A DNA stretch of 64,000 bases from Vandammella animalimorsus (GTDB lineage: Bacteria > Pseudomonadota > Gammaproteobacteria > Burkholderiales > Burkholderiaceae_C). Under the pieces are notes generated by a model, which was not told where the DNA came from, did not search any database, and saw nothing but the letters and a program-made list of their open reading frames with translations. The stretch covers positions 1 to 64,000 of the forward strand of contig NZ_NSJB01000005.1 in the NCBI RefSeq assembly GCF_002285265.1, written 5' to 3'. Below are positions 29,783 through 33,233 of this stretch, piece by piece (position 1 is the stretch's first letter; each line of letters begins with the position of its first letter). The translations under genes were made by a program, and so were the position numbers.

Positions 29783-30160
29783 TCAACCGCCCAGCTCCGC
29801 CAGACGCATGGCGGCCTTGCGGGCATCGAGCAGGATGCGCCCCAGGTTGGCGCTGCTCTCGGCCGAGAGCGTCAGCGCGCGGCCCGTGCCAGCTTCGATC
29901 AGCAGCATGATGCCGCTGCTGCCGCCCAGAATGATCTGCTTGAGCTCGCCCACGTCGATTTCCTTGGTGGCGCGCCGCGACAAGGCCAGCAACGAGGCGC
30001 ACATGGCGCCGATGCGGTCGGCATTGACGTTGGCCTCAGTGGCTGCGGCCAGCACGAAGCCGTCAAATGACACCCACGCCGTCAGCTCTATTTGCGCCGA
30101 ACCTGCACGAAGCTCGCGCAAGATGCTTCGCGCCTGCGATTGCATTACTGGTGACAGCAT
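29783..30160 (-). CDS. Roadblock/LC7-domain protein (second copy)
   Basis: A 125-residue protein of the Roadblock/LC7 fold, which in bacteria (MglB, CvnB) dimerises and acts as an activator or partner of small GTPases. Segments fitting the fold are ITAWVSFDGFVLAAATEANVN-like, IGAMCASLLALSRRATKEI, LKQIILGGSSGIMLLIEAG and ANLGRILLDARKAAMRL. The frame starts upstream at 30199; I took 30160 (MLSPVMQSQARS) because the longer lead is hydrophobic and not conserved. It lies 124 bp downstream of the first Roadblock gene, and is the last gene of the signalling module that begins at 33233. Confidence 0.8.
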   Translation of the reverse strand: MLSPVMQSQARSILRELRAGSAQIELTAWVSFDGFVLAAATEANVNADRIGAMCASLLALSRRATKEIDVGELKQIILGGSSGIMLLIEAGTGRALTLSAESSANLGRILLDARKAAMRLAELGG

Positions 30161-30248
30161 GGTGAGGAAACAAAAATAACCGCAAACGGCCAGCGCCATT
30201 GAATCTCATGGTCTCAACAGGCCCTGGCCAACAGCCGCTGAAACCAAC

Positions 30249-30268
30249 GCGCGCTGCATGCAGCGCGC
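30249..30268. promoter_or_regulatory. perfect 20-bp palindrome between the Roadblock genes
   Basis: GCGCGCTGCATGCAGCGCGC is its own reverse complement. It lies in the 124-bp gap between the two Roadblock genes. As RNA it could fold into an eight-base stem with a TGCA-type loop, but no T run follows. It could be an operator or a transcript-processing hairpin. Confidence 0.45.
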
Positions 30269-30284
30269 GACACAAGGACTTTGC

Positions 30285-30686
30285 TTACAGCGAAGACTCG
30301 ATCAAGGGCATCGCCATGCGGGCCTTGGTCAGCACCATGCCCAGGTTGGCGCCCTTGCGGCACACGAAAGTGGCCACTTGCGATTGGTTCTTGCCGCGCA
30401 GAAAGACGTGCAGCAGGTTGTCGCTGTTGACGATGATTTCCTGGAAGTAGTGACGGCCATCTTCCTGCACGCCGCGCACGCGGCGGAAGATTTTCTCGAT
30501 CGCCTGCACGTTGGGGCCCTGGAACAGGTCGGCCGTGGCGGCAGCGAGCAGGTCAATCACTTCCTGGGCGTGGGAGTCAACGGTTTTGATCGCCAGCAGC
30601 ATGCCGGAGTCGAGATCCACATAGCCTGCGGCGACGCAATCGGGGATGGAGGTGACGGCTTTCTCAAGGCTGGAATCCAGGGACAT
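30285..30686 (-). CDS. Roadblock/LC7-like protein (first copy)
   Basis: A 133-residue protein, probably a Roadblock/LC7 relative. It starts MSLDSSLEKAVTSIPDCVAAGYVDLDSG, continues with QEVIDLLAAATADLFQGPNV, IEKIFRRVRGVQ, a YFQEIIVNSDNLLHVFLRG strand pair and LGMVLTKARMAM, the usual beta-alpha-beta-alpha order. It differs from its neighbour at 29783, so these are not recent duplicates. GAAAGGTC sits before the ATG. The 104-bp gap from the ABC-phosphatase gene holds its own TACAAT -10, so it may be expressed apart from the upstream genes. Likely a GTPase partner for the gene at 32128; the function is inferred from the family. Confidence 0.72.
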   Translation of the reverse strand: MSLDSSLEKAVTSIPDCVAAGYVDLDSGMLLAIKTVDSHAQEVIDLLAAATADLFQGPNVQAIEKIFRRVRGVQEDGRHYFQEIIVNSDNLLHVFLRGKNQSQVATFVCRKGANLGMVLTKARMAMPLIESSL

Positions 30687-30723
30687 CGTAGGGACCTTTC
30701 ACGATCAAGTAAGAATAAATATT

Positions 30724-30762
30724 GTTACATCAGTAACGCGCTCGAACGAAGCCGCGATTGTA
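30724..30762 (-). promoter_or_regulatory. promoter and dyad upstream of the first Roadblock gene
   Basis: On the minus strand TACAAT (30757-30762) is a close match to a -10 box; no strong -35 is seen. Between it and the start lies GTTACATCAGTAAC (30724-30737), a dyad with five-base arms that could be an operator. The region is also AT-richer than its surroundings. Confidence 0.5.
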
Positions 30763-30790
30763 AGGAAATTCTGTCTGGCGCGCAGCGCTT

Positions 30791-32131
30791 TTATGTAAAC
30801 GTCACGTTTCTGCGAATGAATTGCTCGAACGCAGACAGAAACACCTCTTGCGAGGCCGACTGGATCCAGCCTGGGTCGATGCGGCGCATGGCCTTGACCG
30901 AATCCTCGCCGCTCCACTGCCCTTTGGCGCGCCACATCAGATACAGCGCCAGCACTGTGCCCGTGCGCCCCTGGCCGGCCTTGCAGTGCACGGCCACGCA
31001 GCGGCCTTGGGCCATTTGCTTGTCCAGCAGCGCGCACAAATCCACGGCCTGCGCCAGGGTCGGCGGGGTCATGTCGGGAATGGGCATGAACAGGCAGTCA
31101 ATGCCAAATTCCGCCGCCAGCTCCCGGTCAAAAGGGGTTTCCGTCAGGTTCAGCAAGGTGTCGATGCCGGCGCCCTGCAAGCCGGCCAAGTCCTGGCGCG
31201 CCTCGCGCAGCAGGCCGGGGATGGACACGCCAGCGAGCCGGTCGGGCACCACCCAGCGGAACCTGGCCGGCAGCAAGGGGTTGATCTTGCCGTTGCGCGG
31301 CACGCGGCCTGCGCTGAGGGTTTCGATGGTTTCCTCAATCAGGCTGGCCGTCAGCGCGGTTTCTCCATCGCCGCTTTCACTGCGCTCGGGCAGCGTGCCA
31401 TTGGCCAGGTAGTGTTGCCCGGCGGCCGTGCCTGGCGCAGCGAAGAATTGCCCTGCGGGCCCGGCCTCCAGCACCCGGCCATTGCCCAGCAGCACCACGT
31501 GCTGCGCCAGCGCCCTGGCCTGCTGCACATGGTGGGTGATGATGACGATGGCGCGCGTTTGCGCCAGACGCTCGATGAGCGCCACGACGCGCGCCGCATC
31601 GGCATCTGCCAGGCCGGCGGTGGGCTCGTCCAGCATGAGCAAGTCCGGCGCGCGCTGGGCCGCGCGCAGAATGCAAAACAGCGCCCATTCCACATCGCTG
31701 AGCTCGGCCACGTTGGCAAACAGCCGCGTCAGCAAATCGCCTTCCTGCAGCTGCGCGAACAGCCCGCGCAGCGCTTGCATGACGCTGGGCGCACTCTGGC
31801 CCTGGCCTTCGACGAAGAATTGCAGCCCCGTCATGCCCGCAGGGCGCTGGGCTTTTTGCTGCACCCGCATGCGCGCCAGCGGCGCGTGCGGGACGCTGCC
31901 CTGCTGGTAGCTGGCGCGCCAGCTGCCTTCCTGCAACTGACGCTCTTCGGTTTGGCTGAAGGCATCGATGCAGCGCATCAAGGTGGATTTGCCCGTGCCC
32001 GATGGCCCCAGCAAGGCCGTGCAGCCGCGCGCCGGCAGCGTCACATCGATGCCGTGCAGCACCTGCTTGTCGCCGTACCAGGCATCCAGGCCCGTCAATT
32101 GCATCAATACCGTGGCGGCCATGGCGCTCAT
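30791..32131 (-). CDS. ABC ATPase (PstB-like) fused to a dual-specificity phosphatase
   Basis: A 446-residue fusion. Residues 1-235 resemble PstB: YGDKQVLHGIDVTLPARG, Walker A GPSGTGKST (42-50), Walker B LLMLDE (164-169) and H-loop ITHH (198-201). The ABC signature, normally LSGGQ, reads LSDVE (144-148), so ATP-driven dimer closure may be altered. Residues about 285-446 form a cysteine-based phosphatase: HCKAGQGRT (382-390) holds nucleophile Cys383 and Arg389, with a candidate general acid Asp353 in PIPDM. No membrane or permease gene is adjacent, so this is not a usual transporter. The ATG at 32131 overlaps the GTPase stop (ATGA), which fixes the start and couples their translation. The pairing suggests nucleotide-gated dephosphorylation in the GTPase pathway. 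Confidence 0.85.
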   Translation of the reverse strand: MSAMAATVLMQLTGLDAWYGDKQVLHGIDVTLPARGCTALLGPSGTGKSTLMRCIDAFSQTEERQLQEGSWRASYQQGSVPHAPLARMRVQQKAQRPAGMTGLQFFVEGQGQSAPSVMQALRGLFAQLQEGDLLTRLFANVAELSDVEWALFCILRAAQRAPDLLMLDEPTAGLADADAARVVALIERLAQTRAIVIITHHVQQARALAQHVVLLGNGRVLEAGPAGQFFAAPGTAAGQHYLANGTLPERSESGDGETALTASLIEETIETLSAGRVPRNGKINPLLPARFRWVVPDRLAGVSIPGLLREARQDLAGLQGAGIDTLLNLTETPFDRELAAEFGIDCLFMPIPDMTPPTLAQAVDLCALLDKQMAQGRCVAVHCKAGQGRTGTVLALYLMWRAKGQWSGEDSVKAMRRIDPGWIQSASQEVFLSAFEQFIRRNVTFT

Positions 32132-32736
32132 GCCCTCACTTGCAAGCTGCTCATGCGCTCGTGCAGAACGGATTCGGGATAGGCGTGGAACGACTCCAGC
32201 AGCGCCGCCATGACGACCATCAGCAAAGCCACGTCGCGCTGCTCGCGCGCATCGCACCACATCACGGGGGGCTGGCAAATGCTGCAGGTACAGCTGCTGC
32301 GCTGGCTGAAAAAGCGCCGGTATTCGTCCAGATTGCGGCGCTCGTCGGCCTCGGCATGGGTCACGGCAACGATCAGCGGCGCATCGCCATGGGGCTTTTG
32401 CGCGCGGATGGCATCCAGGTAGGTGCTCAGGTCATCGAAACGCTCGGCCCGCGTGTGGTCCACGAACAGTACCGCGCCCTTGGCCTGCTCCAGCAGGATT
32501 TCCCACATGAAGTCAAAGCGGTCCTGGCCCGGCGCGCCGTACAGGCGCAGGCGGTCGCCGCTGCCCAGCTCCATGACGCCCATGTCCATGGCCACGGTGG
32601 TCGTGTCCTTCAGGGCCAGGGTGTCCTCATCGGTAGGCTTGACGTCGGTGTCCACCACCTCGATGTCGCTGATGGCGCGAATGGCCGTCGTCTTGCCCGA
32701 ACCCACCGAGCCCAATACCGCAATATTCCAATCCAT
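32128..32736 (-). CDS. small Ras-like GTPase (COG2229/MglA-CvnD-like)
   Basis: A 202-residue GTPase. The P-loop GSVGSGKTT is at 9-17, a threonine-rich switch I is in KDTTTVAMDMG (43-53), and switch II is LYGAPGQDRF (65-74), the APGQ form of Arf/MglA-type enzymes. The G4 position reads VTHAEAD (125-131), not NKxD, so guanine recognition may differ. Unusually, four cysteines cluster at 149, 151, 154 and 161 (CTCSIC, then WCDA), a possible metal or redox site just before the G5 region. It is coupled by ATGA overlap to the ABC-phosphatase gene. Family members of this type work with Roadblock proteins, two of which lie downstream. Confidence 0.85.
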   Translation of the reverse strand: MDWNIAVLGSVGSGKTTAIRAISDIEVVDTDVKPTDEDTLALKDTTTVAMDMGVMELGSGDRLRLYGAPGQDRFDFMWEILLEQAKGAVLFVDHTRAERFDDLSTYLDAIRAQKPHGDAPLIVAVTHAEADERRNLDEYRRFFSQRSSCTCSICQPPVMWCDAREQRDVALLMVVMAALLESFHAYPESVLHERMSSLQVRA

Positions 32737-32807
32737 AGTTTTTCATCCGAAGCGCATGCTGCGCCATGTTCGCCCTGCCATCGGTCGTCGGTCGAGGGCG
32801 GTGGGCA

Positions 32808-33233
32808 TCAAGACAAGAGTTTTTTCCAGAGCCGCTTGAGAAAGGAGCCCGCCGGCGTCGGCATGGCCGGTGGAGCGGCCTCTTCCTGCGTCGCGACGAC
32901 GTCGGGCGCCACATCGCCGGCGTCGGAGAGGATCTCGCCCATGGTCTGAATCTGAACCTTCAATGCATCGCGCCCAGTCTGGAACACGTCCACGCAACCG
33001 GACTCCTGCAACTGGCGCAGCACTTTTTCCACCTTGTGGCTGGGCATGTCCACCGAGCGATGCACCAAAAACCCCACCGTCGGCTTGCGCGCCAGCAGCG
33101 CGCAAATGCGCGCGATGTCGCCTACGCGAACCAAATCGTATTCCTTGGAAAAATCAGGCCACTGCTTGAGGTACAACAGCTTGGAGCGGATGTCCTCTTG
33201 CGTTTCATGGCTTGAAGGATCTGGACTTGTCAT
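32808..33233 (-). CDS. winged-helix-like protein starting the GTPase/Roadblock operon
   Basis: A 141-residue protein I cannot assign to a named family. Residues 1-95 are helical with a winged-helix look: DIRSKLLYLKQWPDF, VGDIARICALLARKPTVGF, then DMPSHKVEKVLRQLQESGCV (recognition-like helix) and a wing at DVFQTGRDALKVQI. Residues 96-141 are acidic then Pro/Ala-rich, ending in a basic amphipathic tail, FLKRLWKKLLS, which could touch the membrane. It lies 71 bp upstream of the GTPase gene. Its position and size resemble CvnC (DUF742) of actinobacterial conservons, also a winged-helix-type protein; homology is not shown. Confidence 0.65.
   Translation of the reverse strand: MTSPDPSSHETQEDIRSKLLYLKQWPDFSKEYDLVRVGDIARICALLARKPTVGFLVHRSVDMPSHKVEKVLRQLQESGCVDVFQTGRDALKVQIQTMGEILSDAGDVAPDVVATQEEAAPPAMPTPAGSFLKRLWKKLLS

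Follow-up and report, generated by a model that had tools for sequence, protein, structure and literature searches.

The window analysed here, 64,000 nucleotides of Vandammella animalimorsus (contig NZ_NSJB01000005.1, positions 1 to 64,000 of the forward strand), contains at positions 29783..33233 five open reading frames (ORFs), P0001 to P0005, that run on the minus strand from 33233 to 29783 and constitute a real conserved module of a partly known kind together with an undescribed cassette. It is an MglA-type GTPase locus (P0001, P0002 and P0005), with the separable cassette P0003-P0004 located between the GTPase gene and P0005 (Table 1). P0003 is a fusion of an ATP-binding cassette (ABC) ATPase and a cysteine phosphatase, and P0004 belongs to a new Roadblock family; the families of these two proteins are referred to as P3 and P4. 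In the reading that we prefer, and that we hold with almost as much confidence as doubt, the module is an ATP-gated phosphatase under Roadblock control, probably with a redox or gas input and with an optional Group-3-type GTPase, both the chemistry and the signal being putative. The first-pass annotation had described a winged-helix-like protein, a GTPase, an ABC-phosphatase fusion and two Roadblock-type proteins in a minus-strand row, with an ATGA overlap of the GTPase and fusion genes, and all of this is confirmed, one of the Roadblock proteins (P0005) by Pfam Robl_LC7 and the other (P0004) by its predicted fold. Its overall interpretation stands as regards a conserved GTPase/Roadblock module with a fusion, and falls as regards descent from a conservon without a kinase.

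Conservation of the gene order

A scan with P4 gave 169 relatives, and the best 80 of these constitute the locus set, which is biased to close P4 relatives and includes some short contigs. All five genes are found together in 38 of the 80 loci, in beta- and gammaproteobacteria, so that the co-occurrence expected of a conserved GTPase/Roadblock module is borne out, and the four genes without P0005 are present in four more. The ABC-phosphatase and P4 occur without the other genes in 33 loci (up to 9 kb was viewed on each side, less on short contigs), three loci have P4 only, two of them at contig ends, and in two more partial cases P4 lies at the contig start. The hosts belong to the Comamonadaceae, Oxalobacteraceae, Rhodocyclaceae, Gallionellaceae, Thiobacillaceae, Moraxellaceae, Alcanivoracaceae, Wenzhouxiangellaceae and Stenotrophomonas. 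The closest named relative among those found is a Vandammella animalimorsus, with an identical P0004 and a P0003 of 95% identity. The 33 pair-only rows of a 73-protein P3 tree group into a single clade of 32, with Saezia as the one further row, placed unsurely beside a long branch (proteins of 400 aa or less, 9 of the 82 in the P3 family, were excluded from the tree and from the residue counts below). By the locus counts and the tree, the stable unit is therefore P3 with P4, and the GTPase set is a layer that has been gained or lost.

Presence and absence were also scored across genomes, by P0002, P0004 and P0006, the last being the iron-sulfur-globin protein described below, because the ABC part of P0003 matches 300 of 300 genomes. 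Among 399 family genomes, 51 have a GTPase match in a search with P0002 (E up to 0.001) and 27 have P4. The GTPase is enriched together with P4 (18/27 genomes vs 33/372, Fisher 8.6e-12), and the remaining 9 of the 27 P4-bearing genomes show no match to P0002 at this threshold. The control of the phosphatase by the GTPase that had been proposed is unproven: these genomes give no match to the GTPase, and none is seen in the stretches viewed of the 33 pair-only loci.

As further observations on the locus set, the ABC-phosphatase gene is broken into two or three ORFs in L107, L121 and L152 (Diaphorobacter aerolatus, Acinetobacter junii and a Nitrosomonadales metagenome-assembled genome), by sequencing error or decay, and P4 genes are tandemly duplicated in L105, L106, L124 and L152.

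The ABC-phosphatase fusion and its Roadblock partner

The existence of the fusion is well founded. In an alignment of 74 P3 proteins, namely P0003 and the 73 family members above 400 aa, the Walker A Lys, the Walker B Asp-Glu and the H-loop His are each present in 74/74, and in the phosphatase loop HCX5RTG the H, the C, both G, the R, the T and the last G are invariant in all. An Asp that we take to be the general acid, with the role it has in the phosphatase family, is likewise found in all 74. The glycine pair of the ABC signature is found in 0/74, with one G of the two retained in 13, whereas 23 of 24 other ABC proteins, from loci fetched by the same query, have an intact-type signature (the longest P-loop ORF per locus was scored, with success in 24 of 25 loci; the single miss, L021, shows LSGGE). 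The fusion thus keeps its ATP-binding and phosphatase residues, and a normal ABC cycle is doubtful because the signature glycines are lost while the residues for ATP binding are kept. The best solved structures by sequence are a dual-specificity phosphatase family protein, DUSP23 and PstB. The top NCBIfam match of the ABC domain is PstB with 108 bits, far under the 343-bit cut-off, and the phosphatase domain matches Pfam Tc-R-P, a family named for polymorphic toxins. Since ATP-binding and H-loop residues remain without the signature glycines, P0003 could be an ATP-switched phosphatase, in which ATP binding by the ABC domain, perhaps without hydrolysis, would lead to a change of shape or to dimerisation rather than to a normal transport cycle, and would thereby gate the cysteine phosphatase. 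A Hanks-type kinase gene is present in the genome, unlinked to the window.

P0004 matches no Pfam family, Roadblock/LC7 (PF03259) included, at E up to 1. Its predicted structure has the Roadblock topology and a structural match to the MglB-like fold, from which P0004 is probably a dimer, and such dimers might hold or regulate P0003, as a scaffold or as a regulator. Four residues, C17, H79, H93 and C109, are near-invariant in the P4 family. P0005 matches Robl_LC7, and among solved structures its sequence matches two archaeal Roadblock proteins best, then Rv3364c (1.5e-5) and the conservon protein CvnB5 (3.4e-5), as expected of a CvnB-type protein.

A P4 relative with 64% identity and all four Cys/His positions kept is found at L170:4995-5402, on a contig of 71.5 kb that IMG/VR classes as viral (UViG_3300033513_000003), where it lies among genes that by reading are HNH-, vWA- and EAL-like; no ABC-phosphatase was found in the 10.4 kb viewed around it.

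An iron-sulfur-globin protein accompanies the cassette in several lineages

Of the 80 loci, 37 have near the cassette a gene for a protein that joins a [2Fe-2S] ferredoxin domain to a truncated globin; 32 of these also have the GTPase and five do not, one of the five ending at the contig start. Three proteins of this family (L150, P0006 and L126) were scanned with Pfam and those of the other loci were assigned by BLAST; in some lineages an FAD/NAD reductase part lies between the two domains. In an alignment of 35 rows the four cluster cysteines are kept in 34/34, the likely proximal His in 34/35 and a C-terminal CxxC...CxxC pair in 35/35. The representative of the window's own genome, P0006, is encoded on another contig (G000:C12:186387-187529, equal to 8388-9530 of L173) and has the CxxC...CxxC pair at its C-terminus.

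Ferredoxins make 397 of the 399 family genomes match a search with P0006, and only best hits of at least 180 bits were counted; best scores drop from 181.8 to 50.1 bits with nothing between, and G473 and G307 were counted from split or partial matches. Strong relatives of P0006 are then found in 11 of the 399 genomes, and all of these carry P4 (11/27 vs 0/372, Fisher 1.5e-14; by genus 7/17 vs 0/124, 1e-7). The two genes are adjacent in three genomes only (G591, G500 and G307); in the other eight (G000, G480, G438, G522, G317, G651, G419 and G473) they are found on separate contigs or at a distance of more than 45 kb. G419 has both and no match to the P0002 GTPase. The iron-sulfur-globin partner follows the P3-P4 pair and not the GTPase. 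This partnership and the near-invariant Cys17/Cys109 and His79/His93 of P4 suggest that oxygen, nitric oxide or the redox state may be the input, read by the iron-sulfur-globin protein and perhaps also by P4.

A gas or redox theme is met again in L118 (4072-7576), where a protoglobin-GGDEF-EAL protein and a PAS-MCP are encoded just upstream of a pair-only cassette.

Distant relatives of P4 and other phosphatases

A profile search for distant P4 proteins in 98 genomes of the phylum, that of the window included, gave 10 matches, three of them close (the window, G093 and G873) and seven from other classes, and eight stretches, not including that of G805, were viewed. The ABC-phosphatase is present in one of the eight (L220). 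In five of the other seven (L215, L217, L218, L219 and L221) the P4 relative stands directly beside a gene for a calcineurin-like phosphatase, a protein of 500-530 aa that is calcineurin-like in its C-terminal half and of unknown type in its N-terminal half, so that the association of a phosphatase with a Roadblock protein is recovered by a new route. An MglA-like GTPase is encoded in four of the seven distant P4 loci, and among the distant loci one has a double globin and one an ODP-family protein, an oxygen-binding diiron protein. On Ruegeria plasmids (L204-L206, the three viewed of five found) a P4 of 39-41% identity, annotated as hypothetical protein, lies between dynamin-family genes, of which its gene run has four, together with genes for a protein kinase, a PP2C and an FHA protein. 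That dephosphorylation is the output is best argued, though not demonstrated, from the presence of an unrelated phosphatase close to this Roadblock family.

A tentative extension, possible and more doubtful than not, is that P4 is an undescribed Proteobacteria family of phosphatase-coupled Roadblock proteins, joined according to lineage to unrelated phosphatases (the ABC-dual-specificity fusion, the calcineurin-like protein, or PP2C with FHA and kinase proteins and the dynamin family), with repeated haem or iron sensors and an MglA-type GTPase, the main form being gas- or redox-switched and ATP-gated.

MglA Group 3-type motifs of the GTPase, and P0001

P0002 has the G1 motif GxxGxGKT, TT at G2 without an Arg finger, GAPGQ at G3, no [NT]KxD at G4 and DAR at G5. 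Among 26 aligned sequences, TT and GxPGQ are present in 26/26, x being Ala in P0002 and Thr in the genome's paralogue, and D-[A/G/T]-R in 26/26; the relative in L156 has NKFD at G4. As far as the available text of PMC4316618 (Wuichet and Sogaard-Andersen 2014) goes, MglA Group 3 is marked by the absence of an Arg beside the conserved Thr of G2, by G[T]PGQ as G3, by a G4 that lacks the Lys of [NT]KxD and by DAR as G5, and its loci in beta- and gammaproteobacteria encode a protein with a receiver-like N-terminal and a winged-helix-like C-terminal region, the GTPase and one or two MglB-like proteins, a typical composition in which no kinase is named. P0002 has every one of these motifs; its top PDB matches by sequence are Rab and Ras proteins.

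Relatives of P0001 of 124-393 aa align with 17-53% identity, W25 and P26 being invariant in 32 rows, and P0001 aligns with 17-20% identity to the C-terminal part of proteins of 354-393 aa that are encoded at the same place in relatives. In its AlphaFold model residues 21-80 are above pLDDT 90, with a weak winged-helix assignment. P0001 may thus be a shortened version of the Group 3 partner protein, weakly assigned as winged-helix-like. SEA and GATOR1-KICSTOR components act with Rag GTPases and Ragulator, and Foldseek gives weak matches of P0001 to such components (E 0.18-1.3), a likeness that is probably the shared winged helix only. The genome has a second GTPase/Roadblock locus (L063, G000:C1:676000-692000) that encodes Roadblock, PAS, phosphonate-binding-type and GTPase proteins and, by reading, a P0001-like protein ending in the motif RRGFFKSLLDKLF, similar to the C-terminus of P0001. 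The tail, earlier proposed as a membrane anchor, would fit partner binding as well as membrane anchoring.

No histidine kinase is found among the five window genes, and P0001 gives no match to DUF742 at E up to 1. The origin favoured by the first-pass annotation, a conservon that had lost its kinase, was therefore rejected, as MglA Group 3, as described in the accessible part of PMC4316618, agrees with the motifs of the GTPase and with its putative winged-helix-like partner. The GTPase, P0005 and P0001 may instead form an optional layer that could link the cassette to polarity, pili or transcription.

Contrary evidence and alternative explanations

Several observations weigh against an ATP-gated phosphatase with a gas or redox input. 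P4 occurs without P3 in the stretches viewed around L096/L184, L176 and L182 and at the distant loci L216 and L222. The lineage nearest to the window (L090-L094) is a long branch in the P3 tree, of length 1.02; for this reason its signature region has decayed further than that of most others, and it may behave differently. The iron-sulfur-globin protein is missing from 16 of the 27 P4-bearing genomes and is therefore not required everywhere. In the distant relatives the link to a phosphatase is looser than for P3, because the calcineurin-like gene is convergent with P4 in 5/5, hence not in one operon, and in Ruegeria some 8 kb separate P4 from PP2C, the sixth gene downstream in the run. The presumed proximity of Cys17 and Cys109 is deduced from the order of strands in the fold. 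Ruegeria P4 keeps both of these cysteines but has lost His79 and has a variable His93, and both cysteines are absent from the distant P4 of L219, so that the redox idea would hold for the close P4 family only. In addition, a BPD_transp_1 permease gene lies directly upstream of P3 on the same strand in five Comamonas loci (L139, L144, L160, L162 and L165; the domain was scanned in L165), and a permease of the same family (family 24) is one gene from P3 in Acidovorax L140. These cassettes are pair-only, and the permease neighbours weigh against a purely soluble role of the fusion.

The permeases could also mean that the ABC domain is, or was, a PstB-like nutrient-import ATPase that recruits the phosphatase to a transporter, in keeping with PstB as best NCBIfam match and among the best PDB matches. 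This is very unlikely, as the signature is lost in every aligned P3 protein, the five window genes include no permease, and the permease is found in just 6 of the 80 loci and there comes with an ABC ATPase gene of its own (family 11). A relative of the conservons, in which a nucleotide-gated phosphatase controlled by the GTPase has taken the place of the histidine kinase, would agree with the GTPase and Roadblock assignments, with the enrichment of the GTPase in P4-bearing genomes and with the MglA-like GTPase in four of seven distant P4 loci, and some relatives do encode a histidine kinase close to the module (that at L106:3802-5706 is accompanied by an ANTAR regulator, and L155 has a hybrid kinase). 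These kinases are at no conserved place, however, the cassette stands without a GTPase in 33 loci whose P3 proteins are one clade of 32 plus Saezia, P0001 has no DUF742, and the motifs agree with both Group 2 and Group 3 in the available text of PMC4316618; this explanation is decidedly improbable.

Control of type IV pili or polarity in the manner of MglA/MglB, with a pilus or chemosensory protein as target of the phosphatase, is unlikely, though worth consideration. Mutation of an orphan Group 3 mglB in Snodgrassella changed the behaviour of the colony edge, which its authors attribute to pili (PMC11112851, in the part available), MCP proteins are encoded near L118 and L106, and the window's genome has three PilT-family matches above cut-off, the presence of which alone decides nothing. 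Pili are common in these bacteria, the neighbourhoods vary by lineage, and a family that by reading is pilT-like is near the cassette in eight loci, seven of them from Stenotrophomonas. A conflict system, anti-phage or toxin, has very little probability. The phosphatase domain does match Tc-R-P, PADLOC reports mad3 at 1e-19 and one P4 copy is on an IMG/VR contig, but the best mad3 stretch (residues 139-218) lies inside the ABC domain of P0003, none of P0001, P0002, P0004, P0005 and P0006 has a PADLOC match at 0.001, and the iron-sulfur-globin partnership does not suggest defence. The ATP-gated, Roadblock-controlled phosphatase remains the reading that we prefer.

Features of the locus

The coordinates are collected in Table 1. 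The inverted repeat between P0004 and P0005 is a consensus match only, and 10 such consensus sites are observed in the region against 3.9 expected.

Table 1. Genes, motifs and putative regulatory elements of the P0001-P0005 locus.
Feature	Position	Strand	Description
P0001, 141 aa	32808..33233	-	Winged-helix-like; 'WP' motif kept; C-terminal amphipathic helix GSFLKRLWKKLLS
P0002, 202 aa	32128..32736	-	Small MglA-type GTPase
ATGA stop/start overlap of the P0002 and P0003 genes	32128..32131	-	Read from sequence
P0003, 446 aa	30791..32131	-	ABC ATPase (about 10-243) and dual-specificity-type cysteine phosphatase (about 288-434)
Degenerate ABC signature in P0003	31688..31702	-	LSDVE instead of LSGGQ; family alignment
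Phosphatase P-loop in P0003	30959..30988	-	HCKAGQGRTG (CX5R); family alignment
P0004, 133 aa	30285..30686	-	New Roadblock family (P4), predicted MglB-like fold
GC-rich inverted repeat, P0004/P0005 gap	30248..30269	-	Consensus match; possible attenuator or terminator
P0005, up to 138 aa	29783..30199	-	Roadblock/LC7 protein; real start may be downstream of 30199
Terminator-like hairpin and T-run, 3' of P0005	29735..29756	-	Terminator-like

Relation to known systems and significance

The locus resembles the MglA Group 3 systems of PMC4316618 in the partner with a putative winged-helix-like C-region, the GTPase without the G2 Arg and the G4 Lys, the DAR motif, the MglB-like proteins and the bacterial groups, but the available text of that paper mentions no ABC-phosphatase fusion, P4-type Roadblock protein or iron-sulfur-globin protein, and P0001 would be a shortened partner. 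With the Streptomyces conservons (CvnA-D) it shares a GTPase, a winged-helix-like protein and a Roadblock protein that matches CvnB5, whereas the run lacks a histidine kinase and DUF742 and has the ABC-phosphatase and P4 in addition. Unlike in MglA/MglB of Myxococcus and Thermus, P0002 is without an Arg finger at the G2 Thr, P4 has only 13-20% identity to MglB in alignments, and P4 accompanies a phosphatase with no adjoining GTPase in the pair-only loci. PstB-type ABC ATPases and DUSP23-type phosphatases each resemble one half of P0003, but in P0003 they are fused and the signature glycines are gone throughout the family. In Methylacidiphilum HGbRL a globin is likewise coupled to a Roadblock domain and its authors propose a sensor, there within one protein and with no phosphatase mentioned in the accessible part of PMC4476040, here as a co-occurring [2Fe-2S]-truncated globin. 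Neither the fusion nor P4 nor the iron-sulfur-globin link came up in titles and abstract starts of the open-access literature, which is weak evidence of absence.

If the tentative extension given above is true, small-GTPase/Roadblock systems would use a signalling chemistry that the literature searched does not describe for them, a gas- or redox-switched, ATP-gated phosphatase, and the P4 copy on a virus contig would mean that phages use the P4 regulator too. The fusion of a cysteine phosphatase to an ABC ATPase that has lost its signature and kept its ATP-binding residues would couple ATP binding to dephosphorylation in a new way. The idea that gas signals are relayed by Roadblock proteins can be put to a general test through the phylogenetic link between the globin and P4, which is kept even where the two genes lie apart on the chromosome. 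For Group 3 MglA systems the available text of PMC4316618 names only an unknown partner of winged-helix type, and the phosphatase-Roadblock cassette and the iron-sulfur-globin protein are concrete candidates for their output and input.

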